Shown one piece after another: positions 3,171-44,598 of a stretch of 64,000 nt of DNA. A program made the position numbers and the translations under genes. Source of the stretch: Chloranthus sessilifolius (taxonomy: Eukaryota; Streptophyta; Magnoliopsida; Chloranthales; Chloranthaceae); assembly GCA_021018995.1 (NCBI GenBank), contig CM037590.1:104905097-104969096 (forward strand), given 5' to 3'. How positions within the stretch are numbered: the first letter of the stretch is position 1; each line of letters opens with the position of its first letter. The notes beneath the pieces are model-generated. The model saw nothing but the letters and a program-made list of their open reading frames with translations. It ran no database searches and was not told the origin of the DNA.

Positions 3171-3490
3171 CTTTCGATAGGTCATTTGACGATTTCGATA
3201 GGTTATTTAAGGATTTCGATTGGTGCTAAGACTTGTCGATAGGCGAAAACAGCTTTTTGATAGATTCTAAAGGTCGCAAAGAAGCTTTCGATAGATTTTG
3301 GATAGTTATCAGGAACCTATCAAAAGGATAAATCACGTGCTGCATGAACCTATCGATAGGAAGGTTTTGACCTTTCGAGGCATTTCATCTGCACGTTGTA
3401 TTTTTATAGCGTTCGATAGGACACTTTGACATATCAAATCATCCAACTCATCCTATCGAAATCTATTTTTCCTCTATATATACCTATCAG
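3171..3490 (+). promoter_or_regulatory. O internal motif array (CCTATCGATAGG type) with TATA box
   Basis: About twelve variants of the palindrome CCTATCGATAGG or its half TTTCGATAGG lie in 310 bp. Several successive copies are 20-21 bp apart (first four units), then about 31 bp. CTATATATAC at 3473-3482 is a good TATA box directly after the array, about 325 bp before the accessory start codon at 3807. The same motif is arrayed in O's LTR (22168-22532). I read this as an internal promoter for the accessory ORF; function is inferred. Confidence 0.7.
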
Positions 3491-3840
3491 TAGGTCACTT
3501 TCACCCATTTCACACTTTCTGTAAAACCCTCTTCCTCATTTGCCGCTGCCCTCTTTCCGCCAAATACTCTCAGGACTGTTTCTCATTCGATTTATCGTTC
3601 ATCAAGATTATTCAGCCTGCACAAAGGAGCATCTTGCACCTGATCTTTGGGAAATTGGAATTGTGCATCACGGGTTCTGCAAAATCCTAACAGTTTTGGG
3701 GTGAGTTGTTCTCCTGCTTTCACTCTGTGATTTCTCTAACTATTTACTTCAAAGTTTCCCTATAAATTGGTGAGTGAGCCTTAAGAGACCAATTTTTAAG
3801 AGCAAAATGGTCGATTCTTAAGAAACCCTAGCTGACCTGT
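3491..3840 (+). other. O accessory-ORF leader and first codons, cut by element I
   Basis: About 315 bp of untranslated leader precede an ATG at 3807. That frame has a TAA four codons in and then runs to 3840, where element I is inserted; it resumes at 17280, past the duplicated CCTGT. The leader position matches the 275-bp leader of element I's accessory ORF (8818-9093). No other feature seen. Confidence 0.6.
3836..3840. repeat. target site duplication of element I, left copy (CCTGT)
   Basis: CCTGT immediately before the left LTR is repeated exactly at 17275-17279 after the right LTR. It fixes the borders of element I. Confidence 0.95.
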
Positions 3841-4040
3841 TGTTAAGACCTGAAAAGTACCACTTTTCACCCCTTAACTTAACCTTTGATTAGACCCTTA
3901 GCCATCTAATAAGTTCTTATTAAGTGTTTTATGTAGGTAATAATCAGCAATGAAATAAGGCCAGGAATCCTATTAAGGAGCCTACTTTGGCACCAGAAAT
4001 TCCTCTGAAGAATGGACTCTGAATCCAGACTTGAAATGAG

Positions 4041-4770
4041 CCTCGCGTAGCTGACCCAAGCTTTAGAGGATTCAGGAGAAATATGCCTCGCGCAATCTAA
4101 CTGAGCTTCCCAAGACTTTGCAACAACCTTTCGCGCAGTTGAATGACTGAAGAGCTTCAGAAATACAAACTCGTGTAGCTCTCGTGAAGCTCAAGAGTAG
4201 AACACATCGTGCAATTTCGCGTAGTTCAAAACAGACCTCTCTCAATCTCGCATAGCTCTCTCAGAACGGCTGAGGAGAGAGAGCTTCAGAAGACTCCTCG
4301 CGCAGCTGTCACGCAGTGGCCACGGGATGCAAATATCAGAAGAGAACTCCTCGCACAATTCTCGCGCTAATCAAGAAGAAAGCATCCTCATGAAGATCAA
4401 GTAAGAGATGGAACCTCACGAGGTTCAAAACTCATTAAAGCCTCGCGAGGAAACTCGCGAAGTACATTGAAGAAGAAGTGCTCGTGCAGTTCTCGCGCTA
4501 TTCAAATCCTTCCTCGCGAAGATTAGCCCAGCGAAGACAGAGCTACCTCGCGACTGCTTGAACTCCAACCCCGCGACACCTGAGGCCTTGATGTCTACTC
4601 AATCTCGCGAAGCCCAATCCAGCGAGAGCGTAATTCTCTACCGCGCGACTGCCTGAAGAGCAAGCCAAGGCAACCTCACGACGGCTGAAGCTTCAATATC
4701 AAACTATCCTCGCGATGAGCAAGAGCTACCACGCAACAAGTCTGGGAAACAATAGCTACCTAGCGAAGCT
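4041..4770 (+). promoter_or_regulatory. CTCGCG motif array in the 5' LTR of element I
   Basis: More than twenty copies of CTCGCG or single-step decay forms (CTCGTG, CTCACG, TCGCAC), often followed by CAGTT or AAG. Several pairs are 11 bp apart, about one helical turn (for example around 4170-4185, 4353-4370 and 4480-4495). The decay forms are what CpG deamination gives. CGCG boxes are known binding sites of plant CAMTA factors, so host-factor binding is possible. The array lies about 180 bp upstream of the LTR TATA box. The same word recurs upstream of the accessory ORF (8601-8817). Confidence 0.7.
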
Positions 4771-4951
4771 CTAAACTTTAACTTCTATCCGCTTCAGCAG
4801 AGGGCATTCTGGAAATTTCTAGCGATTAGGGCATGCACTCCCATGCTCAAATATCTGTGCATGTGCCCCGAGGCATCCAAGGATCACTATTAGGCCATGT
4901 GGCATCATTAAAATTAGGGTTTCCTAACCCTAATGCGCCGCCACACCACTG

Positions 4952-4960
4952 CTATATAAA
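4952..4960 (+). promoter_or_regulatory. TATA box of the element I 5' LTR
   Basis: CTATATAAA in a C-rich context, preserved in the right LTR at about 15808-15816. Probable core promoter for the genomic RNA. Confidence 0.7.
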
Positions 4961-5738
4961 CCCATACTTAGCTTAGGTTTATTATCTCAGAACATATTTT
5001 GGATACATCTCTCTTCTCATGGAAGACTTGATCTGAGATTATTTTTTTTCTTTTCTTTTGTAGCTGTAAGTAGTTTTCTTTTTCTTTTTCTTTCTCTCCA
5101 TAGTCCAGCATTTGCTGGCTATGCCTTTGTATGCATTTTGAGCTTGCTTAAGGGAAGTTTTGTAATAAGATTTTTACATTATTAGGATTTGTGTTTGAAT
5201 GTGATCTGCTCTGTGCAAGGCTGCTGCCTCGTGATCCGCCATTGCCTTGGCTGTGTTTCAAAGCAATGGAGGACTGATTCTAAGGGCCACTCAGATCCAA
5301 GGGAATTGTGTGTCTGGGCTATCATGGTCCTATACAGCCTTAGCCCCACCACAGGACCCACTAGATCTGAAATCCTCATGGGAGCTTGAGCTGGTAGCCT
5401 AATGACAATGGTGGTGGCTGTAATAATCTTATTTTGTCTTGGGCTCCGTGAAGAGGATAGCCTCTGGGATAGTCTGTGACCATTCAAGAGGACAGATTAT
5501 AGCCTTAGGGTGATTCTAATCCACCGATCCAAGATGGATCCTTCTTCTCTGCATCTGAGCTTGTATTAGCCTGGTGGGAGATTGTACAGAGGCAGAATCC
5601 CCTATATTTGTATAAATCCGCTATCAGGTGTTAGATATGATTTGGCTATAGAGATCGTAGGCTTGTGACTGGACCATTGTAGCTTTACTCAAGCAATGGA
5701 CAGCTAGATCGAAGGTTGTACTCAATCTCTTGCTAGTT

Positions 5739-5788
5739 CTATGTGTCTGGGCCATCATGGTCCTATACAGCCTTGGCCCCACACATAG
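5739..5788 (+). other. long hairpin in the transcribed part of the I LTR
   Basis: Arms CTATGTGT (5739-5746) plus GGGCCA (5749-5754) pair with TGGCCC (5774-5779) plus ACACATAG (5781-5788) around a 19-nt loop. A sister copy at 5316-5346 has the same loop but arms GGGCTA/TAGCCC, a compensated base pair. Both copies are kept in the right LTR. They lie downstream of the TATA box and so would be in the RNA. Confidence 0.65.
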
Positions 5789-6424
5789 AGCTTTAGAGGT
5801 TGAGGTTCCCTATGGATTCTTGAGCTGGTAGCCTGGATGGAATAGTGCCTACAATGATTAACTTGTTTTGACCCATTTCTGGATTGTGGTTCCCCTATGG
5901 AATAGCCAGTGACAGGTTATGACCTTAAGGGTTTGAATCATGGCACAGAGATGGGTTGGATCCTTTCTCCTCAGTGGTGATAACGTAGCCATTGGATAGG
6001 ATTTCTATGACATCATATCTGAATCTGAGTTACAAACTCCTTTGGTCTAAGCTCAATGTCATACTTCTCACCCTTTTGTATTTATTTTCTACACTCCATC
6101 CATTCTCTAAACCATTTCTGTAAGTTAGACATTAGGCTACCTTAGGATCTGTAAACTAAGTGACCTTGAACTCCCTTCCCTTAAGGACTGCCAGACCTAT
6201 AGCCAGATCTGGAGGGACTACTAGAGATGGCTCCCTTGGAGCTGTAGATCATATTTCCCTGTGGGACAAACTCTTACTTATCAAAACTTGCTACAATGGA
6301 CCCTGTATCTTGCAGGTCTAGGACTTCTAAGTTGTGCTGAATTCATCCCCTTTTTTATTTTAATTTTAAGTTTCTTTTACCACAAACAAATAAAGAAAGC
6401 ACACCTGGAGACCCAACAAGTTTT

Positions 6425-6442
6425 TGGCGTCGTTGCCGGGGA
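6425..6442 (+). other. primer binding site of element I (tRNA-Asp type)
   Basis: TGGCGTCGTTGCCGGGGA, six bases after the LTR, matches the complement of the plant tRNA-Asp 3' end at 17 of 18 positions (T for C at 6430). This is the usual Athila primer site. Confidence 0.9.
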
Positions 6443-6785
6443 TAAGTTGATCTATTAGTAGACCCTAAGTTTTTGTAGTTTTATTATTCTTTGGTAGTTA
6501 GGAATAATTGGTATTGCTAATGTAGTTGTAAATTTGTTTTGCAGATCTAAACAGCAGCAGTAAAGGACAGTTGGACTGCAATTGGAGCTTAGCTACCTCT
6601 GTTTGCAAACTCTCTGACTTTTAAAACTCTGTCCATCTTTCTTGAAAATTCTCTAGCAGTATCTAGGATAGTTGTAAATGTACTCTCTGAGTAGCTGTAA
6701 ATTAGTTAGATAAATATTGTTAAGTGTAAAATAATTCTTTTGCAATGTACCTGCAAGAAGCTCTCCGTGCTGCTGGTGTGCTTGT
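6443..6785 (+). other. leader of element I before gag
   Basis: Untranslated leader between the primer binding site and the gag ATG. It would be expected to hold packaging signals. I see no ORF or distinctive repeat. Confidence 0.6.
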
Positions 6786-8274
6786 ATGCTAGGGAGGAGA
6801 TCTCTCAGCCCTACCTTAGAGCCTCTTAACCCTGAGTTAGAAAGGGGAAGGAGACTTAGAAGAGACAGGCACACCACAGGAGAGCCCCCAAGAGGATCTG
6901 TGACAGCAAATATGGGTGAAGAACAACCCAGAACCCTCAAGGAGTTGAATGCTCCGGATGACTATAACTCCCCTTTTAGCATTCAATTCCCTTATGTTCA
7001 GGGGAATTATGAAATAAAGACTTCAATCATCCAGATGCTGCCCTCTTTCCATGGGCTTAGAAAGGAGGGCCCTTACAAGCACATTGATCGGTTCTTGGCC
7101 TTGTGCACCACTTTTAATATCACTGGTTTGGGACCTGAGGCTACTAGGCTCAGACTCTTTCCCTTCTCTCTGAAGGATAGGGCCAGCACCTGGTTGACCA
7201 CTCTGCCCAACAACAGCATTGCTTCATGAAAAGACCTCCAGACCAAGTTCCTGACCAAGTTCTTCCCAGAGACCAAAACTAGCCAGTTGAGGAAGGCAAT
7301 TCTTGCTTTTGCCCAAGCCCCAACTGAGGATTTTAATCAAGCCTGGGATAGGTTTAAGGAAATGCTCAAACAATGCCCCCACCACAAGATCCCAGACTGG
7401 CAGCTTATTCAAAGCTTCTACAATGGGATTGATGAAAAAAGTAGAGATATGGCTGATGCCTCTTGTGGTGGCACTTACATGCACAAAACTGCTAATGAAG
7501 CATGGGAATTGTTTGAGGTGATTAGTGAAAATGCTTTTCAAAAGCTATCCTTGGAAAGAACTAGTCAGGAGTCTGAGTCAAAGGTGGGGCCTGCTGCATT
7601 GACAAGAGGAAAAGTTTGTGAGGTGTCTGGGAACAATGATCTGCAGCTGCAGATGGCAAACCTCTCTATGAAGTTTGATAGATTACTGACTGTGATGCAA
7701 CCCAGAAGGGCTGCTCATGTGGCGGAGGCATGTCTGATATGCCAATCCCCACAGCACACAGTAGAGGAATGTCCATCTGTAGGGCAATATCCTGAATTGG
7801 TTTTGGAACATGCTGCTGCTGCGCAATCTTTTGGCCAACAATAATCTGGTGGTTACAACAGACAGCCATATGGATACCAGCACCAAAATGCTGGTTACCA
7901 ATGGAGAGACCACCCAAATCTGAGGTGGAGGCAAGACAACTATATGCAGCCCCAACAGATGTTGGCCTTACTCCAAAGGCCACAGCAGCAGTCCAATCAA
8001 GGATATGCCCCTAGATCTAATTTCCAGCAGCAGAAATACTTCTTTCGAGGACCAGGTCTTGACCTCACTCTAGAACCTGGGTTCCTTGGCTCAGACTGTG
8101 AATTCTCATGGTCAGAGCATCAAGAAGATGGAAGAGCAGATCGGCCAACTGACAAACACCTTAGCCAAACGAGAAGAGGAAAGATTGCCCAGTCAACCAG
8201 TGGTTAATCCCAAGGGCCAATTTTTGATTGGTGAAGGATCCTCAAACCTTGAAGAGGATCTTTCATTGCATTGA
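6786..8274 (+). pseudogene. gag: gag of element I, decayed and truncated
   Basis: Athila-type gag from the ATG at 6786 (MLGRRSLSPT). One frame continues to about 8060 with stops at 7227 (TGA, at a position where Athila gags have Trp) and 7842 (TAA), then a frameshift carries the final part (MAQTVNSHGQSIKKM, ending 8274). The capsid core runs to KDRASTWLTTLP. The nucleocapsid has an intact CCHC knuckle (C-x2-C-x4-H-x4-C, CLICQSPQHTVEEC, about 7732-7773) followed by Gln-rich sequence. The protein is collinear with O's gag but keeps the 23-residue segment O lost. It ends abruptly where O continues into the Lys-rich linker and protease, so the pol deletion cuts in near 8262. Confidence 0.9.
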
Positions 8275-8600
8275 TACTAAGAACTGTGCACTTTGTATGA
8301 TATGTATTCTACTGTTTCTAGGAATTTTGTAGTAATCTTGCTGGAATCTGAGTTTAGTGCTTTTATGCCTACTTTTATTTCAGTGCCCTTTGTTTGATAA
8401 TTTCATGAGATTGAATGATGATGGTATTGCGTGATTGTTTATCCTGATGTGTGAATTTAATGCTTTGAGAGTATGGAAATTTTTGAACATTTTATAATGC
8501 TTATGGGTATCCCTGGAAGAGAACCTTTGAGAGAATCCACCAACAAAACATAGCTCAACAGGCTGACTAGTGGGTGTGTGAATTCTGACTTTATTTCTGC
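8275..8600 (+). other. spacer after gag in element I
   Basis: AT-rich untranslated sequence corresponding in position to the post-pol spacer of O. The gag-to-spacer junction marks the lost pol. No ORF seen. Confidence 0.5.
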
Positions 8601-8817
8601 CGTCGCGAGGTTCTGAAATTTTGGTTTAGTTCTCTCTCGCGCGGTTCATAAAAGAATCACTTTGCTTTGCTGTCGCGAGTTTCAGATAGAGTTGTGTGGG
8701 CTTCCTCGTGTAGTTCAAATAAACACCCAATCTCGCGACGCATTCTTGCCTATCCAGCGAGTAGATATTTTTAAAGCGCACCAAGCCTAGCGATATTTAA
8801 ATCCCAACTCCGCGCTG
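8601..8817 (+). promoter_or_regulatory. I internal motif array (TCGCG type) with TATA-like box
   Basis: About nine TCGCG words or near forms (GTCGCGAG, CTCGCGCGG, CTCGCGAC, CCGCGCTG, CAGCGAG) in about 215 bp, the same motif as the LTR array. GATATTTAAATC at 8792-8803 is a weak TATA candidate. The accessory start codon is at 9094. I read this as an internal promoter. Confidence 0.6.
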
Positions 8818-9093
8818 CTGTCCTTTATTGCTTTCTCTTTCCTCTCCTGCCAGCGAAACCCTAGCTCCCACTCCTCTTAATCTTTCTCCTCCAACATCTT
8901 GTCTATAGTGCATCATTCACTTAGAAACTCTGGATTTTTGTTCTTAAAGCTTCCATCAACAGTTGCCCCCTGCTAGGAGCTCCTACGGTTTGCCGTGCAT
9001 CAAATTGAACAGAACCCTAACTTTTAGGGTAAGGCTTAGCTCTTAACTTTCTCTTTCAAACTTTCAACTGCACACTCACCAAGGAGAATCTTT

Positions 9094-12000
9094 ATGGCTC
9101 CCAAAAGTGCACCTGTGAAGAGAGCCCGAGATCAGGCTCCCTTGGAGCCTGCCCCTAAGAAAGCCAAATCCTCTACGGCACAAAAAAAAGGGAAGGAGAT
9201 GGTTCCTGAGGTGGCTGAACCAACACCTGATTACTCTACACCCTCTGAACTCCTCATTTCCATTCTCTTAGAGCCTGAAGCCATTTTTGATATAGCTTTC
9301 TTTGAAGCTGAGCCGTTGTCAGCCCCTGCCATTGAGTTCTTGCGCAAGGCTGGTTTGATCCCATTAATGAAAATGATTCCTGCCCTAGCCTACGCTAGGT
9401 TAGTGCAACTCTTTTACCAACACCTTAGGTTCAGACCAGACACACATGGGCAGCCTGGCCTCCTTATGTTAGTTGATAATTTTGAGATGCTATTTAACCT
9501 AGAGTTGATTGCTGAAGTCCTGGGCATCCCAACCATTTTTTATCCCAACTGTGGTTATGGTCCCCCTGTGAGTGCCCCCATCGATACCATTGCACAGGCC
9601 CTTACTAGAGGTTTGAAAGCCATAGGGGACTCCATCAGAAGAAGGGATTTGGATCCTAAATTACTGTTCATTGATCAAGTGCTGAGGAAGAATATTTATT
9701 GCTCTGGCCATCAGCAAGAGAGGACACCAATCGCTGATGCTCTCTATTCCTTCTCCCTGGGCCATAGATTTAATGCTGCATGGCTGATTTTCGAGGCCAT
9801 GATGGATATAATGGTGAAGCTCGGGCTGAAAAAGAAGATCCACACTCTACCTTATGGAAGACTCATCACCAAACTACTTCTGAAATGAGGGTACAAGATT
9901 CCAGTAGGGGAGTTATCTGTTGACCTCACTCCCACCACTTTTGCCAAAAGACAATGGAGGATCAGCAGGAATCTGATGGATCCCCAGAAGAAGAAGAAGA
10001 AGGTTAAAGCTCAGGTTATTGCTGAGTAAGAAGAGAGAACTGCTGGGGCAAAGGCTACCCCTGCCCCTAAAAAGAAGGCTAAGGCCCCTGCTCCAAAGAA
10101 GGTGGTGCAAGCTTCTGTCACATCTACTTCTGCAGCCATACCTCCATCCACCACACTTGCCCCTCCATCTCTCCCCTTCCCTCTCTTATCTTCCTTTTCC
10201 ATTCCAACTCCCCCTATGATCCGTTCCTAGGTGGAGAGTGTTGAACCCCATGACAGCACTCCCCCTTCACCCACCTTACCTCAATACACAACCCCAGTAC
10301 CTCCACCATTATCTGAACTAAACCCTGACAGCCCTCCCCTGATAACCTACGTCAAAAAGAAAACCTCTCACACAACCTTTGCCCGTTCTTTACCTCAACC
10401 CACCACATCTATCCTTCCCACACACACCACACCCAGTGACCCACCCAGTATCCCAACCATCCCTACTTCCCCTCCACTCACAGACCTTGACTTCAACCTT
10501 GCCACCACTTCTGGATATCAGGCTTTCATGACCACATTTCTTGATACCTTGCCAAGCCATGATATCCCTCTCCCAAATTTCTCACTCCCTTCACCTCACC
10601 ACTCACCAGACCTTTCATCTTCCTCCCCTACAACTTTCTATCATGTACCCACTTCCCCTTTCCAACCTATTCCCCCCTCTTCTCATACTCCACCCCCACC
10701 ACAATCAAACACTCTTACCCATATCCTTTCCTTAATCCATGACATCCAGACACAGCTATCCACCACCACACAAACCCAAGCCCAGATGCAGACTAACATC
10801 ACCAACATCCAATCCACCCTTCAAACATTGGCAAACCCACCCATCTCTACACAACCTCCTACCACCCCACTGATCCAGCCCCATTCCACCTCTCACTCCA
10901 CATTACAACCAGACCCCCCAATTGACATAGCTACACCCTTCACCCTCCAAGACACCATACCCCACCACTCCTTCCCCACTCTATCTATCCTTCCCCCACT
11001 CATATTATCTCCTCCCCAATTTACCCACACCTCCACCCAAACAGACCCCATTTCTTTCCCATCCACCTTTCCCATTCCACCCCCCTTATTTGTAACCCCA
11101 CCACTCCCATTTCAACCTTTCACCATTCCATTTCCTCAATTCACTGACCACTCAACACAAACTGCCCCAGCAACCTATATCCCTCCTATCGACTTCATCA
11201 CTCCCGCCCCTACTTTACCCCCCAGGATCCATCGCCTTCTACTTCTTCCACTCCATTTCTCCCAATCTTACCCAGACACTCCTATTACACCCCTCCCTAT
11301 TTCACCCTCCTCCATGCCTTGAGGGACAATGCCTATATCAAGAGGGATGTCCTGAGGAGCATGGCCCAACTTCGTGAAGCCATTGAGTACCCCCTGCTGC
11401 AGAAGCTGAGTGACCTGCAGCTTGCTCACAGGCTGAAGCTGCGTGATGTGTCAAAGGGGTGGAAGTCCATTTTGGAAACCCTCAATGTGACAAAGGCTGA
11501 TGCAACTCATTACAAGATGCAAGCAGAGATGGAGAAAGCCAATGCCGAGCTGGAGCACAAGAGAGCCCGAATGTTTGAAAAGAGGCTGCATAATGTAGAG
11601 GAGATCCACCGGCTCACGAAGGGGCTTTCGGATGCCAACCTCCTTTATGCTTAGAAATAGGTAGAAATTTTATAAAAACGGGTTGCATCCCTGACCGGCC
11701 ACCCTATTGAAGTCACCCCTCTTGCCACAGCACCCCCTGAGGCACCATCTTCTTCCACACAATCAGGACCATCTTCTTCCACTCCCCCTACCCCTACACC
11801 TACACAACCTGTTCTCCCACCTCCTACATCCCCAACTCCAGTGCCTCCTCCTGTTCCTACTCCAGCTCCTGCTCCTACTCCAGTTCGTGCACCTACTAAG
11901 GTCCCTACTCCGTCCCCTGCTCCTGTCTCAGTGCCTCCCCCTGTTCCATCTCCTGCCCCCAAAAGAAAAAGGACTCCTTCCAAGAAACCTTCAGCCCCCA

Positions 12001-12794
12001 AAAGAGCCACTGCAGCCTAAAAAGGAAAAAGGTCAGCCCCTCCATCCCCACCTCCAAAGGTCACCCGAGCTTCTGCTCAGGATGATCCCCATGGTCACCT
12101 ACTTTCCAAAGAAGAACACAGACAGGCTGCTGCTGCTGTTGGTTTGGATCCCACTGTGCTTTTTCCTTTTGACTCTGAATCTGATTCTGCACCACCCATG
12201 GATCCAAGTGTCAGGACGTCGGTTGCTGCTCCTTCATCCAACCCTGTTGCACAGACCTTTCCTTAGAGAAGGAAAGTCCCAGCTAAAAGAACTTCTCACA
12301 CTGCTGCCTCTCTAAAAATTGGAAAAGCAACATCTGCCCAGTCTGAGGAGGCCCCACCAATGAGCCAGCCAGAGAAGGGAAAGCGCCCTGCCATCCCTGC
12401 ACCTAAGGACAAAGCAAAGTCTTCTGTGACTCCCCCTAAGCTTGACAAAGGGAAAAGTCCTCTCCAGTAGCAGGTGAAAGACAAAGCTAGAGCCCCTGTT
12501 GTCCCTCCTAAGCCAGAACAAGCCCAATCCCCTCTCATTCCCCCTCAGCCTCAGCTAGGGAAAAGCCCCAAAGGGAAGAGTCCCAAAGGAAAAACTCCTA
12601 TCACATCCCCAGAGCTGACTCAAGAGAAATCTTCTGTGGCCCCCCCTGAACCTAAGACCAGAAAAATGAGGGTCAGGGCACCAACCCTACCCAAAATGGC
12701 GGCTCAACGAAAGGAAGAGAGGGAACGTAGGAAGAAAGAGGAAGAGGCTATCCTCCAAGAGCATGCCAAGAGGATGGGTTGGGACAAATTTTGA
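9094..12794 (+). pseudogene. long accessory ORF of element I (PF20167-like N-terminal domain, disordered tail)
   Basis: Roughly 1,230 codons, interrupted by several stops and frameshifts. Order: basic NLS-like N-terminus (VKRAR, PKKAK, about residues 8-35); a folded domain to about residue 264 with landmarks YARLVQLFYQHL, IRRRDLDPKLLFIDQVLRKN and LPYGRLI; a KKKKKVK patch (about 9985-10005); a very long Pro/Ser/Thr-rich stretch (10231-11310); a probable coiled coil (about 11322-11654); a second Pro-rich part; an acidic patch (GLDPTVLFPFDSESDS, about 12147-12194); and a charged C-terminus (RKEERERRKKEEE). No signal peptide or membrane segment is visible, which argues against an envelope protein. 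O and H encode relatives. The family name is from memory and its function is unknown. Basic ends, acidic patch and disorder suggest a nuclear or chromatin protein. Confidence 0.8.
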
Positions 12795-26598: not shown

Positions 26599-26603
26599 CG
26601 CTC
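26599..26603. repeat. target site duplication of element H, left copy (CGCTC)
   Basis: Exact match to 39663-39667. Confidence 0.95.
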
Positions 26604-32098: not shown

Positions 32099-33225
32099 AA
32101 GGCTGGATATTGTTCTTTCACATCGGCCTCTCATTCCCAAGTAGCCTCTTCGTTCGGATGATTGTTCCATCGAACAAGCACTAAGGGAATCACTTTAGTA
32201 CGCAATACTTGTTCCTTTCGATCCAAGATTTCCACTGGTTCCTCTATCATGCTCATGTCCTCACACATCTCCAAAGGTTGACTTCCTAACACATGAGATG
32301 GATCGTTTATATACTTTCTGAGCATCGATATGTGGAAAACGTTATGTACTTGATCGTATAACGGTGGTAATCCAATGCGATAAGCAACTTCTCCTACGCG
32401 TCCCAAAATTTCAAATGGTCCAACATAACGGGGACTTAGCTTCCCTCTCTTGCCAAACCTCATTACGCCTTTCATAGGTAACACTTTCACAAACACATGC
32501 TCACCCACTTTATAGTCGACACTAGTCCGCTTGATGTCGGCATAACTTTTCTGTCTGCTCTATGCTGACTTCAGCCTCTCTCTGATTATACGCACGACAG
32601 TGGCGTTGTCTCCAAGTAGTTCTGGTCCTAAAATAAACTTCTCACCTGTTTCTTCCCAATTGAGGGGTGATTTACATCGTCGTCCATACAGAGCTTCATA
32701 TGGTGCCATGCCAATGCTCGTTTGGAAACTGTTGTTGTATGCGAATTTGATCAGCGGTAGATACTGATCCCAATATCCTTGCATATCTAGCATGCATGCT
32801 CTGAGCATGTCTTCTATTACTTTGTTCACTCGCTCTGTCTGCCCATCAGTTTGAGGATGGAAAGCCGAACTAAAATCTAGTCGCGTTCCCATTCCTTCTT
32901 GAAATTTCTTCCAAAACTTGGGCGTATATAGTGGATCACAATCTAAAACTATGCTGCTTGGAATCCCGTGTAGTCTTACAATCTCCTTCATGTATAAGTC
33001 TGCCAGTCTTCCTGCCGTATACATAGTATTGTATGGCAAAAAGTGCGCTAATTTGGTCAATCGATCTACGACGACCCAAATGGCATTGTGTCTCTTGGCA
33101 GTACGCGGTAATCCAACAATGAAATCCATCGAGATCGATTCCCACTTCCATTCTGGTATTGGTAAAGGCTGTAATAGTCCAGCAGGATGTCTATGATCAA
33201 TCTTCACCTGCTGACAGGTCAAACA
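32099..33225 (-). pseudogene. integrase and chromodomain of element H
   Basis: Same frame as RT. The zinc-binding part spans the TGA at 33226 (H...H, then CLTCQQ). The catalytic core shows SMDFIVGLP (first Asp), LDCDPLYT (second Asp) and TDGQTERVN (Glu). A TAG lies at about 32560. The C-terminal module GKLSPRYVGPFEILGRVG is followed by VHNVFHISMLRKY. The chromodomain (EPVEILDRKEQ..., VRWNNHPNEEATWE) is cut by a TGA near 32131 and continues to about 32099. Chromodomains direct integration to particular chromatin. The stops fit CGA-to-TGA and CAG-to-TAG changes. Confidence 0.92.
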
Positions 33226-35184
33226 TCATGGCACGTATTCAGCCACGTCTTGCTTCAAACCTCTCCACCAATAGTTCTTTTTCAAGTCTTGGTACATTTT
33301 GGTGCTATCAAGGTGGATAGCATAATTTGACTTATGGGCTTCATCAAGAATCGTTCGTCTTAGATAGGCATTGTCCGGAATGCAGAGACGGCCCTTGAAC
33401 AATAAAGAACCATCTTCTTTTACTAAGAAGTGCGACCTGATGCCCTCACTCACGTCTTGATGAATCTTTGTTAATGTCGGATCTTTCATCTGTAGATCGT
33501 GGATATGCTCAAATATTACTGGCTTCACTGATATGTTAGCCAAAAAGGATCCTGTAGCTTTCGACTCAATGTTCGCATCGTAAAGTGCCAGGTCTTCCAA
33601 TAATTTCCACCGGTGAATACCCAAAATCAAACAAGCTAACTGAGGTGAACTCTTCCGACTCAAGGCATCGGCTACTACGTTCGCCTTGCCTGGATGGTAC
33701 TGTATAGAACAATCATAATCCTTGAGGAACTCCATCCATCTGCGTTGTCTCATGTTGAGCTCTTTCTGTGTAAACAGGTATCGGAGGATCTTATGATCGG
33801 TGAAAATTTCAAACGTCTCACCATACAAGTAATGTCTCCAAATCTTCAGCACGAAAATGACTGCTGCTAGTTCCAAGTCATGAGTCAGGTAATTTTTCTC
33901 GTGTTCTTTCAACTGTCTTGATCCGTAAGCTATCACCTTCTTGTGTTGGTTAAGCACACAACCTAAACCATTGTATGACGCATTGCTATACACTGCGTAT
34001 CCTCCACTACCTGAAGGAATCGCCAGCACTGGAGCCAAAGTGAGTCTCGTTTTGAGTTCTTGAAAACTCTTCTCGCATGCCTCACTCCACTCAAATCTTG
34101 AATCTTTTCGTGTCAGCTTCGTGAGAGGTCCCAATATCTTTGAAAACCCCTCGACAAAACGTCGATAATAGCCTGCTAAGCCCAGAAAACTTCGGACATC
34201 GGTCACTGTCTTTGGTTGCTCCCATTTAACCACTGCTTCTATCTTTGCTGGATCTACAGTGACACCGTGCTTTGAGACAACATGTCCTAAAAAGCTAACC
34301 TCTTCCAACCAAAACTCACATTTGCTGAGTTTAGCGTTCAATTGGTGTTCACGTAGCGTCTGTAGAGCAATCCTCAAATGTTCTTCGTGTTCCATCTTGG
34401 ATTTGGAGTATATCAAAATATCATCAACGAACACTACGACGCAGGAGTCCAAGTGTGGTTTAAACACTCGATTCATCAGATCCATAAACGACGCCGGAGC
34501 ATTCGTCAACCCAAACGGCATCACAAGGAATTCATAGTGTCCATACAGTGTCCTGAAAGCTGTCTTCTGAATGTCCTCTGCCTTGACTCGCAACTGATGG
34601 TATCCAGATCTCAGATCGATCTTGGAAAAATACTTTGCTCCTTGCAGTTGATCGAACAAATCGTCAATTCTAGGCAAAGGGTAGCGGTTCTTCACAGTGA
34701 GTTTGTTCAATTGTCGATAGTCAATGCATAGCCGCATTAACCCATCTTTCTTCTTGACAAATAAGACCGGTGCTCCCCATGGAGACACACTCGGTCTGAC
34801 AAACCCCTTGTCCATGAGCTCTTGTAGTTGTTCTTTCAACTCCTTCAACTCGGCCGGAGCCATTCTATATGGCGCTTTTGAAATAGGCTCCGTTCCCAGT
34901 GCTAAGTCAATGGCGAATTCCACTTCTCTCTCTGGAGGTAATCCAAGCAATTCTTCTGGAAACACGTCGGCGAAGTCTCACACAACTGCTATCTCAAAAA
35001 AGATGTTCTTTTCCTCCTTGTCCTCTTTTAAGAAAGCCAAGTATCCACTGCAACCCTTTCTGATCATTTTCTCGGCCCTTACTGTTGAGATCAGTGGCAT
35101 AGATGACGACCTCACTCCTTGAAACCGAAATGATCTTCTTGTGTTGGGTCTGAAATGATGACCTTGTTCTGTAATCGATCAAGG
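33226..35184 (-). pseudogene. reverse transcriptase and RNase H of element H
   Basis: Open from 34965 to 33226 (580 codons), with the N-terminal connection from protease broken by a stop and frameshift near 34980-35180. RT motifs are complete: [53 protein letters not shown] (catalytic Asp pair present), LSKCEFW and FLGHVVS. RNase H follows ([12 protein letters not shown], where Asn replaces the expected catalytic Asp; [21 protein letters not shown]), with DALSRK at its end. It is the only RT in the window with an intact active site. Confidence 0.95.
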
Positions 35185-35498
35185 TTACGTTGTCTTTGCC
35201 AACCAGTCCATGCCAAGGATCACATCAAACCCTTGCATGTCTAGCAGTATCAACTTTGCTTCCAACTCATGCACCTCTAGGTCTCGAACTGCTACAATGA
35301 CAGATTTGCAAGCTAACTCCGTGTCCACTAACTCTCCAGTCAGAATAGACACAGATAGGACGAAGTCCAACACCTCTGGACCAATCTTCATCCTCTTGGC
35401 AAAACGTGGAGTGACGAATGAGTCGGTAGACCCTGGGTCTATCAACACTCTAGCGTCATATCCAACAAAGCATCCCTTCTGATATATAGTTAAAGTAC
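35185..35498 (-). pseudogene. protease of element H
   Basis: Aspartic protease beginning at the predicted splice acceptor (35498). Catalytic segment VLIDPGSTDSF (D-P-G-S/T in this branch), then LILLDMQGFDVILGMDWL, the usual chromovirus end. A stop at 35185 separates it from RT. Confidence 0.85.
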
Positions 35499-35666
35499 CT
35501 ATAGTATACACACATACATACAATAATTTACACATCAATTTACACCCCTAATTCACATATAAATATAGTATTGAGAAAAAGAATTTATATAAATTCCTAA
35601 TGAATGCACCTTCTCTATCTAAAATTTTAATGAAATGAAAATTTCTTTAATTTAAAAGAGTCTCAC
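35499..35666 (-). other. putative intron between gag and protease of element H
   Basis: 168 bp of very AT-rich sequence starting GTGAGA after CAAG and ending TATAG before GTAC (minus strand). Removal would join DIIQ to GTLTI through a Gly codon, at a site where chromoviruses are continuous. Upstream gag has a one-base shift relative to this frame close by. Stops occur in the gap. Confidence 0.6.
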
Positions 35667-37039
35667 CTTGGATGATGTCATACACGCCTCGCTCTCGAGC
35701 GGATCGTGATAGGCTCTCCCATGAACGACCGGCTTCCGTGCTTGAATGGGTCGTGGTGCTGCAACCGAAGCTGTCTTTCCTTTATCAGTATCGGGGCAAT
35801 CCTTGATCAAGTGGCCCACCTTGCCACATCAGAAACAACCCCTAGTCCCTGTTCTGCAATCCACCGTTCTATGAGGCTTGCCACACTTGGCACAAGTCTC
35901 TCGAGGCGCGGAAGAAACTGTACGAGAACCCTGTGTGATAGTGGCGCCAGTAGACATGGCAGGGCTCTCATAACGTAAAGGTCTCCCCGACGCAAGTAGT
36001 GGAAATCTCTGTTGGTGTTGCTGTTGCGCTGGTCTTCCAAAACCCCCTTGGAACTGTGGTCTCTGATTTTGGGCCACGAACCTCGGCTTTTTGTTCACCA
36101 GTTCATAGTTCCCCGATCTTCCTTGATCATTTCCTCCTCTTTGTTGCTCTCTCTGTCTATATCTATTTGTATTTTCCTCTTCTACAACCAATGCCTTGCT
36201 CATGACCTCCTCATAGGTCCTCAGCTGAAATAGAGCTACTCCTCCCCTCACCTTAGGCTTCAAACCTTGCTGAAACCTCTTGGACTTCATCACGTCGGTA
36301 GCGACGTAATCCGGAGTAAAACGGGCAAGTCGTAGAAACTCCACCCCATATTCTCTCACTGTCATTCTCCCTTGCACCAATTGCAGAAATTGTATCTCAA
36401 GCTGGTTTCTTACTACTTCTGGAAAATATTATTTGTTGAACTCCTCAACAAACTCCTCCCACGTCCAGGGCAACTCCGGGGTCTCCTAAGCCCTAGTCCG
36501 TATCACGGACTTCCACCAAGGCCCAGCCTCCCCATCTAGCATGTAGGCTGCCCATCTCACACTCTCATCTTCCGTGCATGTCAGCACGCTAAAGACCTTC
36601 TCCATTTCCATTAGCCAATTTTCAGCTGCCATCGTGTCTGCCTGCCCAGAAAATGAAGGAGGTCTCATCCTCCTAAACTCTGTAAAGGATGAGGGCACAG
36701 CGTGCCGGGTCCCTGCATGTGGTGTAGGTGGTCAGCCGTTTTCGCATGAGCTGCAAAGGATGCGGCTTGTTGAGCCATGGCAGCTGCCATGGTCTCCATG
36801 GTATGCATCATCCTTTGTCGCTCCTCTCTATCCTCTTGTCTTTCTCTAACTCTCTCCTGTTCTCTTTGATCTCGATCCTGACGATCTCGATCCTCATCAT
36901 CATGCTGTCTACTACTGCTACCCCCTGGGGCCTCAGTACCTCCTAAAGGCACTCTATTGGTAGGAGAGATGTAATCATCTCCACTATGCAGACTCCTCTG
37001 TTAGCCTCCCCTTGGTAAGCCTCTTCCTCTAGATGACAT
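35667..37039 (-). pseudogene. gag: gag of element H
   Basis: Chromovirus gag. Probable start at 37039 (MSSRGRGLPRGG, then a TAA). An acidic/Arg-rich coil follows (EDRDRQDRDQREQERVRERQ). A frameshift near 36700 leads to the capsid core (RMRPPSFSG; AENWLMEMEKVF; GPWWKSV) with stops near 36486 and 36430. It then continues LVQGRMTVREYGVEFLRLAR to a Gln-rich stretch. Two zinc knuckles: CAKCGKPHRTVDC (C-x2-C-x3-H-x4-C) and CF, a TGA, CGKVGHLIKDC. A shift close to 35690 precedes the intron-like gap. Confidence 0.9.
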
Positions 37040-37139: not shown

Positions 37140-37141
37140 AC

Positions 37142-39662
37142 TGTGACAGCCCGGATTTTGGCACCCCAAAACCCGTGCCATCAGCATGATCATCTTGACC
37201 GTGCCCCTTAGCTATGCACGAAACATTGGTATATCAAGTAATGAACTGAATTGAAATAATAATGAAGCTGCGGAATTAAATTATTATATAAGTATTTCTC
37301 AAAATACAGTTCTACCCTCATGCCTCTACATGAACGGAGAACCGACTCGAACCATCGATGATAGCTAATCATCACAGATGGTTCGCCCAAAAGAATAATC
37401 CCAAATTTATACATATACATTGTTTAACCAAAAACAAGGCTTGACATACCAAGCCGTACAACAATCTCACAAAACTCTCAAAGCTGCACAACGGAGTCCT
37501 CTAGAAGAAGTCCTCAGGAGGTGGCTCCAACTCGTCTCCAGGTGCAAGGTCTGACTCACCGGAGTAAACGTCTCCTGAAGCCTCGGCAGCTGCGACGTAT
37601 AGTCTAAAGGGTGAGCTACATCCTAGCTCAATAGGGAACAGAACACAGTTGAACATATAAATTACCACTCACATATATTCCATGATATGCCATGCATGAT
37701 GTGTCTATGCAGTTACTGATGAAAAATAGTTGAAAAGAATCACATTTTACTGGTAGTTTACTCATGTCTTTTACTTATTTATGAATGATGCTGAAAAGGC
37801 CTAAAGCAAAACTTAAACTTTCAACTTAAGTAATCCCCGATCAATATAGCATCGAGCCCCAATGAGATACCCATCATCGTCATCTATATAGACAGTTTTA
37901 AAAGTATTCCCTAGGAATACAAATAGTACCCAAGCCCCTTTCCCCAGGGGATTGGTGGCGGGATTTCACTTGTCTCAACTCAACACCCCTGGGGTGTGCT
38001 TACTGTGTACGGATAAGCCTCCGCACTGGCCTACGGTTTCGCGGCCGTATATGTCACGGATGTCCTACCGCGTCAGTCGTGGATATCCCATCTCGTCAGC
38101 GGGGTACCCTATCAAACCTCAAATAACAAAAGTATCAGGTGCTTTACATATAGTTATTCACCGTGTAAGTGTGCTATCTTATATCAGTTAGGCCCTATCA
38201 AATATGATTCAATCTTGGATACATCCCTGGGATGTATCCATTCACTTGCATCACACCTGATGCTCTTATCTCTTTACTTCCTCATCCCCTGGGGATGGCT
38301 CATTATAATTACTCTTATTGATGTCACACACACACACTTTTCACAAATCTTAAGCAATAAAACATTTTGAATTGAATTCTATATCACTACATACATGCTC
38401 TTACAAAATAAAGTACATGTTCAAGGTATTCCCTACCTCAAGTCTCTGTTTGATCATGCATCAAGGTCCCACGTGCCTCCTTGTGCCCAAGCTCACACGT
38501 ACTACCTATGGTACCACATAACATGTGAAATACATCACTAAAGATGTAATAAAGAAGGTCCAAGACCCTCCAAGAATCTTAAAGTCGAACTCAAAAGTCA
38601 ACAAAAACTGGCACAGTCGATTAATCGAACTCCAAAATCAATTAATCAAATTTGATTCGATTAATCGATTTCCAAAATCGATTAATTGAAATTCAATATC
38701 AATTAATTGATTCTCAAATCGATTAATCGAGATTCCCATTTGATTAATCGAATCCCCATTCGATTAATCGAAATTCTCCATTCTATCCAGTCGATTCTCA
38801 ATTCGAGTAATCGAGTTTCCTAAATTGATTAATCGAAATTCTAAATCGATTAATCGAACTCTCATTTCGAATAGTCGATTTCTCCAAGCTCTTTTCTTTT
38901 CTCCACTAGAGTTCACTGTAGGTTCCCAGTCGATTAATCGATACCCAATTCAATTAATCGAAATTCAAAGTCGATTAATCGAAACTCAATTCGATTAATT
39001 GAGATCGGGATCCTCTGACTTTTCAACTTCTTGGCCAAAATCGATTAATCGATACTCATTTTCGATTAATCGAAATGGCCAGATTGAGCCCCCTTTTGGC
39101 TGTTCTTCCCAATCTTTTCCCTTACTTTTCCTCCATTTTTCTAAGCCTTTATCCTATACTTTAAACCATTTCTAACTACAATCTAACCTTTCAATCTATG
39201 CATTTAATCTACAAGAATTTTACCTTCAATCAATCTCAAATTGATTTAAATCAAGTGGTTGGAAAGGCTAGGGTTCCAGCTTTGGCTTGAACGGATCATT
39301 CGCGTTGAATCGGTCTCTTTAATGCTTGAATCCCCCTTCCAATCACCCACAATAACTCCTTGCTCAACCCTTCTTTACTCCTCTCTCTCTTCTTTACTTC
39401 TCTCTCAACAACCCATAACATGAATTTTAGGGTTATTAAACCCTTTTTATCTCTCTTCTAGTTGGTGTGTTGAGCACATGCACCGCGATAGGTGTATGTG
39501 ACTTCACATTTACATCACACACCACATAGTCAGTCAAACTATTACATCTCATCCGTTCATCACACTCTATGCTAACTATTGAACTCCTAATTGGTCAAAC
39601 CTGTGACCAATCGGGCACGGATCCTGAGGTCACTGTTTAACATGATTTTTTGGGATATTACA
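37142..39662 (-). repeat. 5' LTR of element H (right copy)
   Basis: 2,521 bp. TCGATTAATCGA array at 38616-39073. TATA candidates on the minus strand near 38178-38186 and 37882-37890, neither adjacent to the array. Followed by the CGCTC duplication at 39663-39667. Confidence 0.95.
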
Positions 39663-40954: not shown

Positions 40955-41575
40955 TCACGATGGGACTTTGGAGGTTTCTTCTCTTAGGTCTGCTGTGGCA
41001 GTAGTTGGCGGTTGTGATGTGATGTCTTGGGAGAAATAATGTTGTGATGGGACCTGAGGGTTCTCCCTTTCTTTGGTTGCGTGCTGGGTGAGTCCTGGTG
41101 GGACATGGGGATACATTCAAGAGAGAGAGAGTCCTTTGCTTTGGTGATGGGATACAATCCATCTTTCCCTCTTTTCGTTATACGGCGCGGCATGTGCTGT
41201 CTGAGCTTTTTTTCTTTTCAGGTAGTGATGTTCGCAATGGGATGTCGACTGAGCGTAGCTAGTGATGGCATGCTAGTGGGATATTTGCGCGATGATACAT
41301 TGGTGTCTTTCTTTGGTAGATCTTGGGTTATAAAAGAAATCACGTTGTGGTTGCGTCTAGCTTCGTCTTGGGTGGTTTACTTTTGGCTTTTCTCGATGGG
41401 TTATGAGGGTATAGTTAATTTATTGTGATGGGACTAAGTATTGAAGTGATATTATATGTGTACACATTATCGCGATGGGGACGGGTGAGTAAGTCTTTTT
41501 TTTCTTTCGACGGGAGCAGCCTGTGAAGCTACGCGATGGGAAAAAGGAATTCTGGCTGCTATGGGATAAAAGAAT
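40955..41575. repeat. dispersed TCGCGATGGGAC-like repeats in element G
   Basis: About nine words of the form YGYGATGGGAY (CACGATGGGAC, TGTGATGGGAC, TCGCAATGGGA, ATCGCGATGGGG, ACGCGATGGGA and others). The consensus equals the last 12 of the 19 bases of G's primer binding site apart from its 3' base, but in the opposite orientation. Not coding. Confidence 0.5.
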
Positions 41576-41689
41576 CTTGAGGGCATAGATTTTATCCAAA
41601 GTCGAGTATTGCGTGCCTGATTTAGGCCACTCAATATGATTATGCACCTATTTCAGGCATGCGATCCCAGGCTTGAGGGGTCGTTTAAG

Positions 41690-42480
41690 CACGTGGGAGT
41701 GTGTGTGCGATTATATTACGCGTTATAATAGAAGCGCGTTATCGAGGCGTCACTAGGTCAGTGTATGAGTGATCGTTCAGGTCACGTGATGGCAATGTGT
41801 CATTTGATTGGTTTGCGTGGTTCATGGAGTGCACGTGATCGGAGCGTCGCACAGTTGGCGCGGGCGATGGTTTCAATACACGCTCGGATCGGAGCACATG
41901 TTTTGAATTATGCGTGATCGTGCTAAGCACATTTTCGAGTTATTAAGCTCAGCACATTTTTGAGAGAGCTTTCATTTTTTTTCATTCTCTGGTTTAGTCT
42001 CGAGTTTTGACCTTTTCCTGTATATCTGGTGTTCTAAAATTCGTGTTTTAATGATATCGAGCGATCTAACCGTCCGATTGGGATGTCGTCTCTTCTTATA
42101 TTCATTATTTTGTGTGATCTTCGTCCTGAGGTGATGCTCGTGGACGGCATTATTCTGAGAATGGGCGGTATTGAGAATGAAAGCGCTTGTCTTCACATCG
42201 ATCCTTTTTAGGGGGTAGTGAAGGCAGCATTAAGGAGGCGACAGTGGAGGAGGTGAAGATAACGGAAGAGGAGTAAAAAGTGGAGGGATGTGTTTCCCAA
42301 CTAATGCTCCCTAAAGTCTCTGATTGGACACTCAGAGCGGAATCTGCTCCTCGCTTCGTCTCAGTTTTGAACCCAGTTTTCATTTTGGGTTGTAGGTTAA
42401 AGTTTTGGGTTTTCGTTTTGGGTTGTAAATTCAGGAGGTACGCCTCCGGTGATACTTGTAAAATTTTAAATTATAAATGA
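41690..42480 (+). promoter_or_regulatory. G: second CpG motif cluster and diverged copy of the PMD-gene leader
   Basis: The cluster 41690-41935 holds ATTACGCG, GAAGCGCG, CACGTGAT, GCGTGATC and similar words. The next 200 bp (about 41965-42100) resembles the PMD leader at 44620-44740 (CTCTRGTTT, TGTTCTAAAATT/GTGCTCTAATTTT, GTGATATC, CCGT, GTCGTYTCTTC). At 42433-42446 is the hairpin GGAGG-TACG-CCTCC, also found later. It looks like a decayed copy of the antisense gene's ends without its exons. Confidence 0.45.
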
Positions 42481-44216
42481 GGGGGCATTTTTTTGTTTTG
42501 TTCTTGTTTGCTTGTTTATTCGTTTAATCTTATTAGCGGATTAGCTGGATTTATCTGATTTGTTTGACTTATTTTTTATTTTACTTAGAGTTTTGAGGAT
42601 TCATCCTGAATTTATTCAGGGCTTATCCCGAGGTTAATTTACTCTATTGAGCTTGGTTTAGAAGGTTTAGTTAGTTCTGTTTGGTTTGTTGGGGGCATTT
42701 TTTTAGTCCTAAATCAGTCAGGGTCTGGTTTAGAAGGTTTACTTAGTTCTGTTTGGTTTAAGGTTTGATTTTAACTTGAGCTTTGCTCTTTTATTTGATT
42801 CAACATGAGACTTAAAAGGTGTGAGTTTTCAAAGGTTTTAGGTGGGTGTTGGGTGTTTAAATCCTATTGGTTAATCCATTTCGCTTTGGATCTATGTTTC
42901 TTAGGGGGTTAAGTGTTGTGTGATTATTGGTCCATCTAGGTTTGTCATGGATTGTGGTCTTTCAAAGGGGTATGTGTTTGGTTTAGATTAAGAGTAGATT
43001 GGAATGATTTAAAGGTGTGACACCTGTCATTCTATGATTTAGGAGGGTATAGTTTATAAATGTGTGAGTTAAAAGTTTTAGGTTCTTATTATTTTGAATT
43101 TTATTCCAAGTTTAGGATTAAAAGTTTTGGGGCATTTTTTTGTGATTTAGGGCATTTTTTTTATTAATATATTTTCTTCCTTTCTCTTTTATATCCCGAG
43201 TGTTGGACCCGAAGAATTGTGTTTATGGCGTGGATTATTGAGAATTGACGGAATTGGGAATGTAAGGTAGCGGTCGAATTACTGCCATGCTAAGGGAAGA
43301 GATGGAGGAGAAAAGGTGGTAGAAAGGAAACCCAAGGATAAGGCAGGGTTAGAATTATCGTGACCGATGCCTATTTTTCCTCGGTAGGCTCTACAGATCC
43401 CATATTAGTTGCTCTTCCTTTTTAGGATTTCCAACGTGAGCTTCTAAGGGCGGATCCCGTAGGTCCTGGATGGCTTTTCTTGAGCCACTCTTTCTTTTCT
43501 GCCGGCTCGGGGCAAAAGGGAAGAAGTCATTACGGTTAGAATTCGTTCAAGGCACCCCTTTTCTTCAGGTTTCTCCGAGATTTCTAGTTTCCCGAATAAA
43601 TCCGGATTCAAGGATTGCCTGAACATGAGGATTTTAAGTTTCTTGTTTTAGGCTATATATTCAGAGGGTATGCCCTCGGTGTATTTTGTAATTATTTTAT
43701 TTGTTATGGAGATTACGAATTTAATTTCCTTTGTAAATTCAGGCTTAGTTTGTTTTGTATCTTATTTTATTTATTTTGAGTGCAAGGTTTACTCGTTTAA
43801 TTTATTTATTTTGGATCAGGGCATGTTAAGAGCATTCTTGTTTTGACTTAGTTTTGGCTTAGTTGAACAATGAGGGTGTTTTTCTTGTTTAGTTTTGCCT
43901 TAGTTGGGTCAAGTTTTTTTTTGCTTGTTTTGTTTAGTTTTTCTTCGAATGAATGGATGATGGGGGGCATTTTTTAGTTTAGTTTTTTTTTTTTTTTGGT
44001 ATTAGTCAAAATGTATAAGTGATGTTGGGGCATTTTTCCTTTTTTAGTTTAGAACATTTTCTTTTAGTTACTGGGGTAGATATTTCTTTAGGTCTGGAAT
44101 GCTTTGGGATTGGGCTTAACAAGGGCGTGGATTAGGCTGATAATTAGTGTTGGAGATTACTTATTTTTGCCTATGAATGTGTTGTTTTGGGCATTTTTTA
44201 TTTTGTGTTTCTGGAG
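42481..44216. other. G: GGGGCATTTTTT-rich non-coding region
   Basis: At least seven copies of GGGGCATTTTTT (near 42483, 42691, 43131, 43148, 43965, 44027, 44190), one hairpin GAGGG-TATG-CCCTC near 43666-43679, and no credible gene. GGGGCAT also forms the end of G's polypurine tract, there on the other strand. Confidence 0.5.
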
Positions 44217-44598
44217 AATTGCGCGCTTCACTCTGAGAACTTAAATTAATTGTGCGCCAGAGAGTGGACGTGCGTTCAGAGTGTCAGAATGTAATTACAC
44301 GCCAGTTTTTGACCGTTTGATGGATTCAAACGCAGGCTACTGGGCGCGTGATTAAGGCAGTGGCTGGTTACTGTATTGGTGACTATTGGCATTCACGCGC
44401 CACCATACGGATGCTTGAAGCGATTACGCGCTTAGTAGTATGCGCACAACCAGGCGGTTGGATTAGTTTGAGTGGGCGGTGTTTGGTTTACGCACTTGAG
44501 GTCGGTCATGTAATCCGAATTAAGCGCAGTTATAGTTGCATGTGATTAGTTTGAGTGCCAGAATTTAAGCACGTGATTTTGGGGTGTCTTATAAATAG
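44217..44598 (+). promoter_or_regulatory. promoter of the antisense PMD gene: AATTRCGCGC array and TATA
   Basis: About twelve words of the LTR motif type (GAATTGCGCGC, AATTGTGCGCC, AATTACACGCC, GCGATTACGCGC, GAATTAAGCGC, AAGCACGTGATT) in 360 bp, then TTATAAATAG at 44589-44598, 170 bp before the ATG at 44769. G's LTR has the same array next to its TATA box. Confidence 0.7.

Follow-up and report, generated by a model that had tools for sequence, protein, structure and literature searches.

In foamy viruses, the gene of the transactivator Tas is under an internal promoter, and both this promoter and the long terminal repeat (LTR) respond. This text is about LTR retrotransposons of the plant Chloranthus sessilifolius, in which an accessory gene is preceded by an array of short sites that is also found in the LTR. 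It concerns a stretch of 64,000 nucleotides (GenBank assembly GCA_021018995.1, contig CM037590.1, positions 104,905,097 to 104,969,096), here called the window, and four elements within it, named O, I, H and G. Other stretches from the same genome have names starting with L.

Several plant systems are also close. The VANC proteins of VANDAL (MULE) transposons relieve silencing in a family-specific way, and the noncoding motif arrays involved differ between related families and change together. VANC carries the domains DUF1985 and DUF287, and its motif is arrayed in one orientation (PMC5735166, PMC10398659). In maize, Spm TnpA is an element-encoded activator of its own element, linked to demethylation (PMC10398659). 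The accessory gene gene23 of Grande and the accessory open reading frames (ORFs) of Retand lie between pol and the 3' LTR, often in antisense (PMC7264820, PMC11963269). The Grande gene has its own promoter and a nuclear product (PMC7264820), while Retand ORFs carry Transposase_28 (PMC11963269). Accessory genes of plant LTR retrotransposons have been described with unknown function (PMC7264820, PMC11963269). A literature search at the level of titles and abstract openings, with most subscription journals outside it, gave no prior report of a motif common to LTR and internal promoter in plant retrotransposons.

A motif common to the LTR and the region before the accessory gene

The preliminary description of the window held that O, I, H and G each have a palindromic motif of their own, arrayed in the LTR and again upstream of the accessory gene. 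The core of this observation is confirmed, and it is wider than first noted. The motif is shared between the two places, it sits directly before the gene, and it is conserved among copies; in part of the promoters it also has a regular geometry.

For the comparison, 7-mers enriched in one LTR array were scored over the 64 kb with the element's own LTRs masked. The highest peak is the claimed internal array in all four elements: 3158-3457 for O, 8460-8759 for I (which overlaps 8601-8817), 31437-31736 for H and 44220-44519 for G. Sites of the O, I and H motifs number 0-1 in the arrays of the other elements, and 14, 17 and 4 in the remaining 58.7 kb. When set against seven LTR profiles, 12 of 12 internal arrays have their best score with one that belongs to the motif class of the array, where I and L040 count as one class and H and L041 as another.

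The palindrome is a different matter. Both O arrays exceed shuffled sequence as palindromes, as does the internal array of H, and the LTR array of I does so for its 10-mer palindrome. As a universal rule the palindrome is rejected, since the best palindromes in the G arrays are within the shuffle range. The G motif, GCGCGTAATTA, is directional. Counted at up to 3 mismatches on either strand, and with the word picked after viewing the arrays, it has 8 internal sites (shuffle mean 1.5, maximum 6) and 9 and 10 sites in the two LTRs (shuffle maximum 5), against 0.44 per 400 bp elsewhere. Six G-type sites are also clustered at 41600-42000, between the 3' LTR of G and its internal array, which is the densest such spot outside these features. 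For the H motif, exact TCGATTAATCGA pairs within 30 bp have 129,893 matches per strand genome-wide, and the reversed control has 0.

With the motif masked, internal promoter and LTR have no blastn match at E<=0.01 in 8 of 8 copies (O, I, H, G, L037, L038, L040 and L041). I, G and L040 lack a match even unmasked, so masking is uninformative for these three. Given this comparison, there is no trace of a pasted LTR besides the motif, and LTR duplication as the source of the internal array is unsupported by it. The region before the accessory ORF carries the cis code of the LTR, as had been proposed.

Own-genome searches covered the 2.17-Gb genome. The Pfam Transposase_32 domain gave 13,855 first-look candidates, of which 150 were scored. 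From these, 28 loci were taken, non-randomly, spread over match coordinates and rank (8 at 8 kb, 20 at 2.5 kb). The later 20 were picked after the motifs of the first 8 were known, with their own upstream sequence unseen. In 21 of the 28, the best upstream palindromic 8-mer exceeds all 100 first-order shuffles. A score of 10 is reached by 21 loci and by none of 33 control tiles drawn outside LTRs and known arrays, where the highest score is 6. The best word is of the GGACGTCC class in 17 loci (two of them tied with ACGTACGT, and L056 weak), CTCGCGAG in 5 and GATTAATC in 3.

These loci add a copia-associated family (ACGGACGTCCGT) and L041 to the four elements of the window. The copia context is known from L036 only, which has a copia integrase and RVT_2 immediately before the gene. 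Because the domain of L036 is near-identical to those of the array-bearing L045, L048 and L050, the GGACGTCC class is regarded as copia-associated. The accessory ORF of L036 directly abuts the copia reverse transcriptase (RT), and in L047 the match lies inside a 772-codon open frame. L041 has an integrase core upstream of the gene and combines two palindromes; an extra TCGATTAATCGA/TCGATGCATCGA array is found at 2976-3121 (sense coordinates), past its accessory domain and outside the placed LTR. L038 also contains a small element at 4070-7679, with an LTR pair (4070-5101 / 6650-7679, 94.9%) and an antisense ORF with a gag domain. Its LTRs bear copia-associated GGACGTCC sites, and it perhaps makes use of a regulator supplied by another family.

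Among the 8 long loci, 6 allowed the position of the 3' LTR to be assigned, and in all six it bears the same motif as the upstream region. The LTR site counts are 3, 5 and 4 for the copia-type L037, L038 and L039, 8 for L040, 4 for L042 and 4 for L041 (two TCGATTAATCGA and two TCGATGCATCGA). For L037-L039 the placement followed the end of their mutual homology together with a purine tract seen by reading; for L040 and L042 it followed the tract preceding the LTR, and for L041 a homologous pre-LTR stretch alone. The comparison excludes L043, where the LTR is outside the stretch, and L036, which is without an upstream array.

With one exception, taken up below, the motif follows the accessory-protein clade on the tree. 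For a strict coevolution of one protein with one motif this says little, as clade tracking alone is the expectation from inheritance.

Conservation, spacing and CpG decay

It had been expected that relatives would keep the internal array. In H this holds throughout: both arrays are kept in 30 of 30 loci, these being the best 30 of 83 scored, from 56,012 first-look candidates, with the window copy included. Each has 18-28 sites upstream of the ORF and a further 6-19 in the 1.5 kb downstream of it, where the LTR lies, while the ORF body is free of sites. In 29 of the 30, the distance from the start of the last internal site to the start of a TATA box is exactly 21 bp, where it should be kept in mind that H copies are related by inheritance and not independent. 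Both arrays are also present in 2 of 2 O copies and in 1 of 2 further I copies. The searches for accessory relatives had 41,360-56,012 unscored first-look candidates per query.

Sites recur at about 21 bp in five of six families. Neighbours are 18-22 bp apart in 519 of 708 cases in the H internal arrays and 19-22 bp in 369 of 461 in the H LTRs. The copia internal arrays have 63 of 124 spacings at 20-22 bp, those of L041 20 of 37 at 19-23 bp, and the O LTR 9 of 19 at 20-21 bp. In G, 7 of 9 inverted (minus-plus) neighbours are 21 bp apart and the other two 52, with the caveat that its two LTRs are not independent. A general 10.5-bp helical phasing of all spacings is unsupported once those shared by descent are merged (p=0.005 in the O internal array with n=8, and 0.06-0.88 in the other eight sets), so that the regularity put forward is confined to the step of roughly 21 bp.

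Recognisable TATA boxes mostly follow the last site at 15-19 bp. Measured from the centre of that site, the distance is 15 bp for H internal, 17 for O internal, 18 for G and 19 for two of five I relatives (L040 and L043). In copia it is 15-17 internally and 16-17 in the LTR (3 of 3 LTRs). The L041 clade has 47 bp internally (2 of 3), and the L041 LTR also has 47. Copia, G and L041 thus have one and the same step in both LTR and internal promoter. In G the two are on opposite strands, the 18 bp being computed on the plus strand for the internal promoter and counted on the printed sequence, on the minus strand, for both LTRs. The phase of the last site to the TATA box gives p=0.048 over six self-picked values, which is post hoc.

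The preliminary description placed a TATA-like box after all four internal arrays and after the LTR arrays of O, I and G. By strict match, the former is borne out for O, H and G and fails for I. Among the LTRs it is borne out for G. O has no strict match there, and by reading a TATAAG near 22628; in I a TATA box is found only some 180 bp past the array (4953, 15809). The TATA box of the L042 LTR is 44 bp away.

The decay of CpG to TpG/CpA was compared between the two LTRs of one element. The decayed fraction in the array and elsewhere is.40/.33 for I,.48/.48 for G,.56/.53 for O and.22/.35 for H, where array CpGs are decayed slightly less (7/32 against 17/49). Outside CpG, C-to-T change is several times less frequent. 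Per unit length, CpG sites are about 3 to 9 times as common in the arrays as in the rest of the LTR. Because they are dense though decaying about equally fast, the motif must be renewed among replicating copies; and because array CpGs decay like the others, inserted copies look methylated in the arrays too. The pattern fits a binding site that would be used in transposing copies.

The accessory genes and the layout of the window

The window consists of nested LTR retrotransposons. By reading, I sits inside O and H inside G. Table 1 lists the features.

Table 1 Features of the four elements in the window. TSD, target-site duplication.
Feature	Position	Strand	Details
O 3' LTR	21889-23815	+	5' LTR left of window, L005 7831-9772, 90% identity
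O LTR array	22168-22532	+	10 sites of the CCTATCGATAGG motif
O internal array	3171-3490	+	CCTATCGATAGG-type; top peak of LTR k-mers; 7 sites at <=3 mismatches; palindrome TATCGATA exceeds shuffles
O internal TATA box	3475-3484	+	17 bp from centre of the preceding last site
O accessory ORF	17365-18000 or 17365-18237	+	Transposase_32-like; 32% identity to H domain (alignment)
I LTR pair	3841-6418 / 14697-17274	+	95.5% identity; TSD CCTGT (by reading)
I LTR arrays	4041-4770 and 14897-15628	+	CCTCGCGAGG; 11 sites each
I internal array	8601-8817	+	decayed; top k-mer peak; 3 sites at <=2 mismatches; not above shuffles as palindrome array
I accessory ORF	9040-9885	+	PF20167 Transposase_32, E=8e-7
H LTR pair	26603-29101 (3') / 37141-39662 (5')	-	92.8% identity; TSD CGCTC (by reading)
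H LTR arrays	28056-28512 and 38616-39073	-	18 sites each
H gag-pol	32131-36428	-	Pfam: RT, RNase H, integrase, weak chromodomain match
H internal array	31241-31868	-	TCGATTAATCGA; 21 sites
H internal TATA box	31220-31231	-	21 bp past start of last site; same distance in 29/30 H loci
H accessory ORF	29508-31055	-	516 codons stop to stop; PF20167 Transposase_32, E=2.3e-7
G LTR pair	24063-26574 (3') / 58690-61180 (5')	-	90.2% identity
G LTR arrays	25917-26335 and 60518-60938	-	9 and 10 sites; TATA at 25905 and 60506 (minus)
G pol region	50212-55336	-	integrase (weak, E=0.0077), RVT_3 RNase H, G-patch
G internal array	44217-44577	+	GCGCGTAATTA; 8 sites; antisense to element
G internal TATA box	44590-44598	+	18 bp from CG of last site
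G accessory gene	44769-48110	+	multi-exon by reading; plant-mobile-domain-like; decayed; antisense to element

The Transposase_32 matches of H and I have bit scores of 31.3 and 29.5, both below the curated cut-off of 45 for PF20167, while L036, L037, L040, L041 and L043 score above it. The O accessory ORF alone has no Pfam match at E<=0.01. It is separated from its own array by the I insertion (3841-17274). The I domain, like that of O, aligns to the H domain at 32% identity. In G, the accessory gene sits between pol and the 3' LTR, on the strand opposite to the minus-strand pol. Two of its pieces give weak collinear matches to the plant mobile domain (PMD, PF10536), with E-values of 0.021 and 0.078 that miss the cut-off; two further pieces of this decayed copy have no Pfam match at E<=0.01. 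A search of a large protein database with the sequence P0001 found no homologues.

H is a minus-strand chromovirus, with gag in addition to the domains in the table. G is presumably of the Tat-type lineage; Pfam detected no RT in its decayed pol pieces. Its G-patch domain is at 54713-55336 (E=0.0013). I has gag, and no pol was found among the ORFs of 6735-14696, so that I is probably non-autonomous and yet bears an accessory gene. O and I are related, with 67% DNA identity in the gag region and 81% in the pre-LTR region. An inverted relative of the G pol region (50080-52893) lies right of G at 61192-63998 (83%), and another is found left of O, at L005 3120-7826 (78%).

What may read the arrays, and known systems

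The arrays would make sense if, in several plant LTR-retrotransposon families, the accessory gene were a second transcription unit. The gene is of the Transposase_32 type in O, I, H, L041 and the copia-associated family, and PMD-like in G. The region before it is presumably an active promoter of its own. LTR and pre-gene region both contain arrays of the same family-specific site of 10-12 bp, in most families often paired two helical turns apart, and about 1.5 (or 4.5) turns upstream of a recognisable TATA box. The accessory protein, the putative reader of the arrays, would bind them cooperatively along a single helical face, either by itself or together with host partners. Once bound, it would switch on its own promoter and the LTR of the family. 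This effect is taken to be activating, either as positive feedback or as a relief of silencing like that by VANC and TnpA. That the accessory protein is in this way a family-specific regulator of its own LTR and its own promoter is, judging by the sequences, somewhat probable.

A model in which the protein reads the code is supported indirectly, because genes of one protein family, Transposase_32, are repeatedly preceded by the arrays in copia-associated as well as gypsy elements, and because the related O and I differ in motif both at the LTR and at the internal array. The H accessory protein is under purifying selection: the ratio of nonsynonymous to synonymous polymorphism (pN/pS) over 30 sequences is 0.10 in the domain and 0.20 and 0.21 outside it. 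These values are biased downward, the copies having been picked from 56,012 candidates as the best protein matches.

That bias is one of several points that speak against regulation by the accessory protein. The second I copy has two upstream sites and none in the 801-bp stretch on its LTR side, a stretch cut by distance, blind. The I clade is without the 21-bp step, and a mere 1 of 8 spacings in the O internal array is 21 bp. Of the internal promoters, a strict TATA box stands at the expected place in 4 of 17 of the copia type, 2 of 5 of the I type and 2 of 3 of the L041 type; within 80 bp of the LTR arrays there is none in H, O, I or L040. As a palindrome array, the I internal array in the window scores 4 for CTCGCGAG against a shuffle maximum of 6 (5 in a second run); it is supported by the k-mer scan and by the relatives L040, L043 and L062. 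Three of the 28 domain-picked loci, L036, L047 and L055, are without any of these upstream arrays, L036 and L047 probably being deletion copies. A strict one-to-one relation of motif and protein does not hold: the H and L041 clades share the core TCGATTAATCGA, and their accessory proteins are not sisters in the tree. The LTR families sampled are those that carry an accessory gene. Post-insertion hypomethylation of the arrays is unsupported, and the VANC-like unsilencing suggested earlier is not visible as demethylation in array CpG decay. Finally, structure prediction for the accessory domain of three window sequences gave no confident fold (predicted local distance difference test score, pLDDT, 41.9; predicted template modelling score, pTM, 0.39).

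The main rival is a host transcription factor, recruited per family, that reads the arrays. The accessory gene would then merely be co-regulated with the LTR, and its product would act elsewhere, for example in nuclear import, packaging or chromatin. A host factor per family would yield the same arrays, and the sites have a host-type resemblance: GACGTC is what we take to be a bZIP C-box, and ATTAAT presumably is homeodomain-like. The core common to H and L041 is also in line with this, as is the gag-only element beside L038, which bears the copia-associated motif without an accessory gene in the stretch examined. Set against this are six families with five cores, five of the six with 21-bp pairing and with most recognisable TATA boxes 15-19 bp from the last site. 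Such a shared geometry is more readily explained by a single protein fold than by host factors of unrelated kinds, and four of the five cores accompany one accessory protein superfamily. The host factor is considered rather unlikely.

In another reading, the array-bound protein is an autorepressor or controls copy number, shutting both promoters once it is abundant. The anatomy would be no different, and TnpA-type proteins can act as repressors as well as activators. The arrays, however, lie upstream of the TATA box and cover neither this box nor the start site (in O, a single additional site lies shortly after the internal TATA box), and their conservation in very abundant families would speak against net repression. 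Autorepression is regarded as improbable. More improbable still is an internal array that arose through LTR duplication or tandem-repeat growth, as a by-product with no regulatory role: H arrays are near-tandem at 20-21 bp, tandem growth alone preserves spacing and an old LTR copy could retain the motif only, but 8 of 8 copies have no similarity besides the motif, the array directly precedes the ORF and any recognisable TATA box, and the motif is maintained while CpGs decay, with arrays in 30 of 30 H loci.

Regulation by the accessory protein could also be more general. Plant LTR retrotransposons, copia and several gypsy lineages alike, may have a modular self-regulation in which Transposase_32 or PMD proteins are family-specific DNA-binding activators or anti-silencers. 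Each would have a private, two-turn-spaced site in LTR and internal promoter, and LTR, promoter and protein would shift specificity together, which would prevent cross-activation. On the present sequences this wider version is about evenly balanced between right and wrong.

A cis code in common with the LTR gives these accessory genes a specific, testable job, and it predicts the likely target site of each protein. If the reading is true, self-encoded anti-silencing or feedback control reaches beyond DNA transposons and includes the elements that are most abundant in plant genomes. There would also be a natural collection of related DNA-reading proteins that differ in specificity.

The system may work like VANC, Grande/Retand, Spm TnpA or foamy virus Tas; membership in none of these is established. 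With foamy virus it has in common that the same cis elements are found in the LTR and before the accessory gene. Tas, however, belongs to an animal retrovirus and is an unrelated protein. Spm TnpA is likewise unrelated, and comes from a CACTA DNA transposon without a second promoter.

Grande and Retand are alike in that the G accessory gene is antisense and between pol and the 3' LTR, here with an array and a TATA box. Unlike in these, sense genes are found here as well, in a chromovirus and a copia-associated family. The available portions of the Grande and Retand papers report no motif common to LTR and internal promoter (PMC7264820, PMC11963269). Transposase_28 was not found in G, where two pieces of the decayed copy have a weak PMD match only and two have none at E<=0.01.

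VANC and VANDAL share with the present elements a protein encoded by the element and family-specific arrays of short motifs in noncoding DNA. A Pfam scan of 7 sequences up to E=10 gave Transposase_32 or PMD only, and no DUF1985 or DUF287. VANDALs are MULE DNA transposons, whereas the elements described here are LTR retrotransposons with LTR pairs, gag, RT and integrase. Their proteins are of the Transposase_32 or PMD-like type, and their sites are palindromic or inverted and often 21 bp apart.

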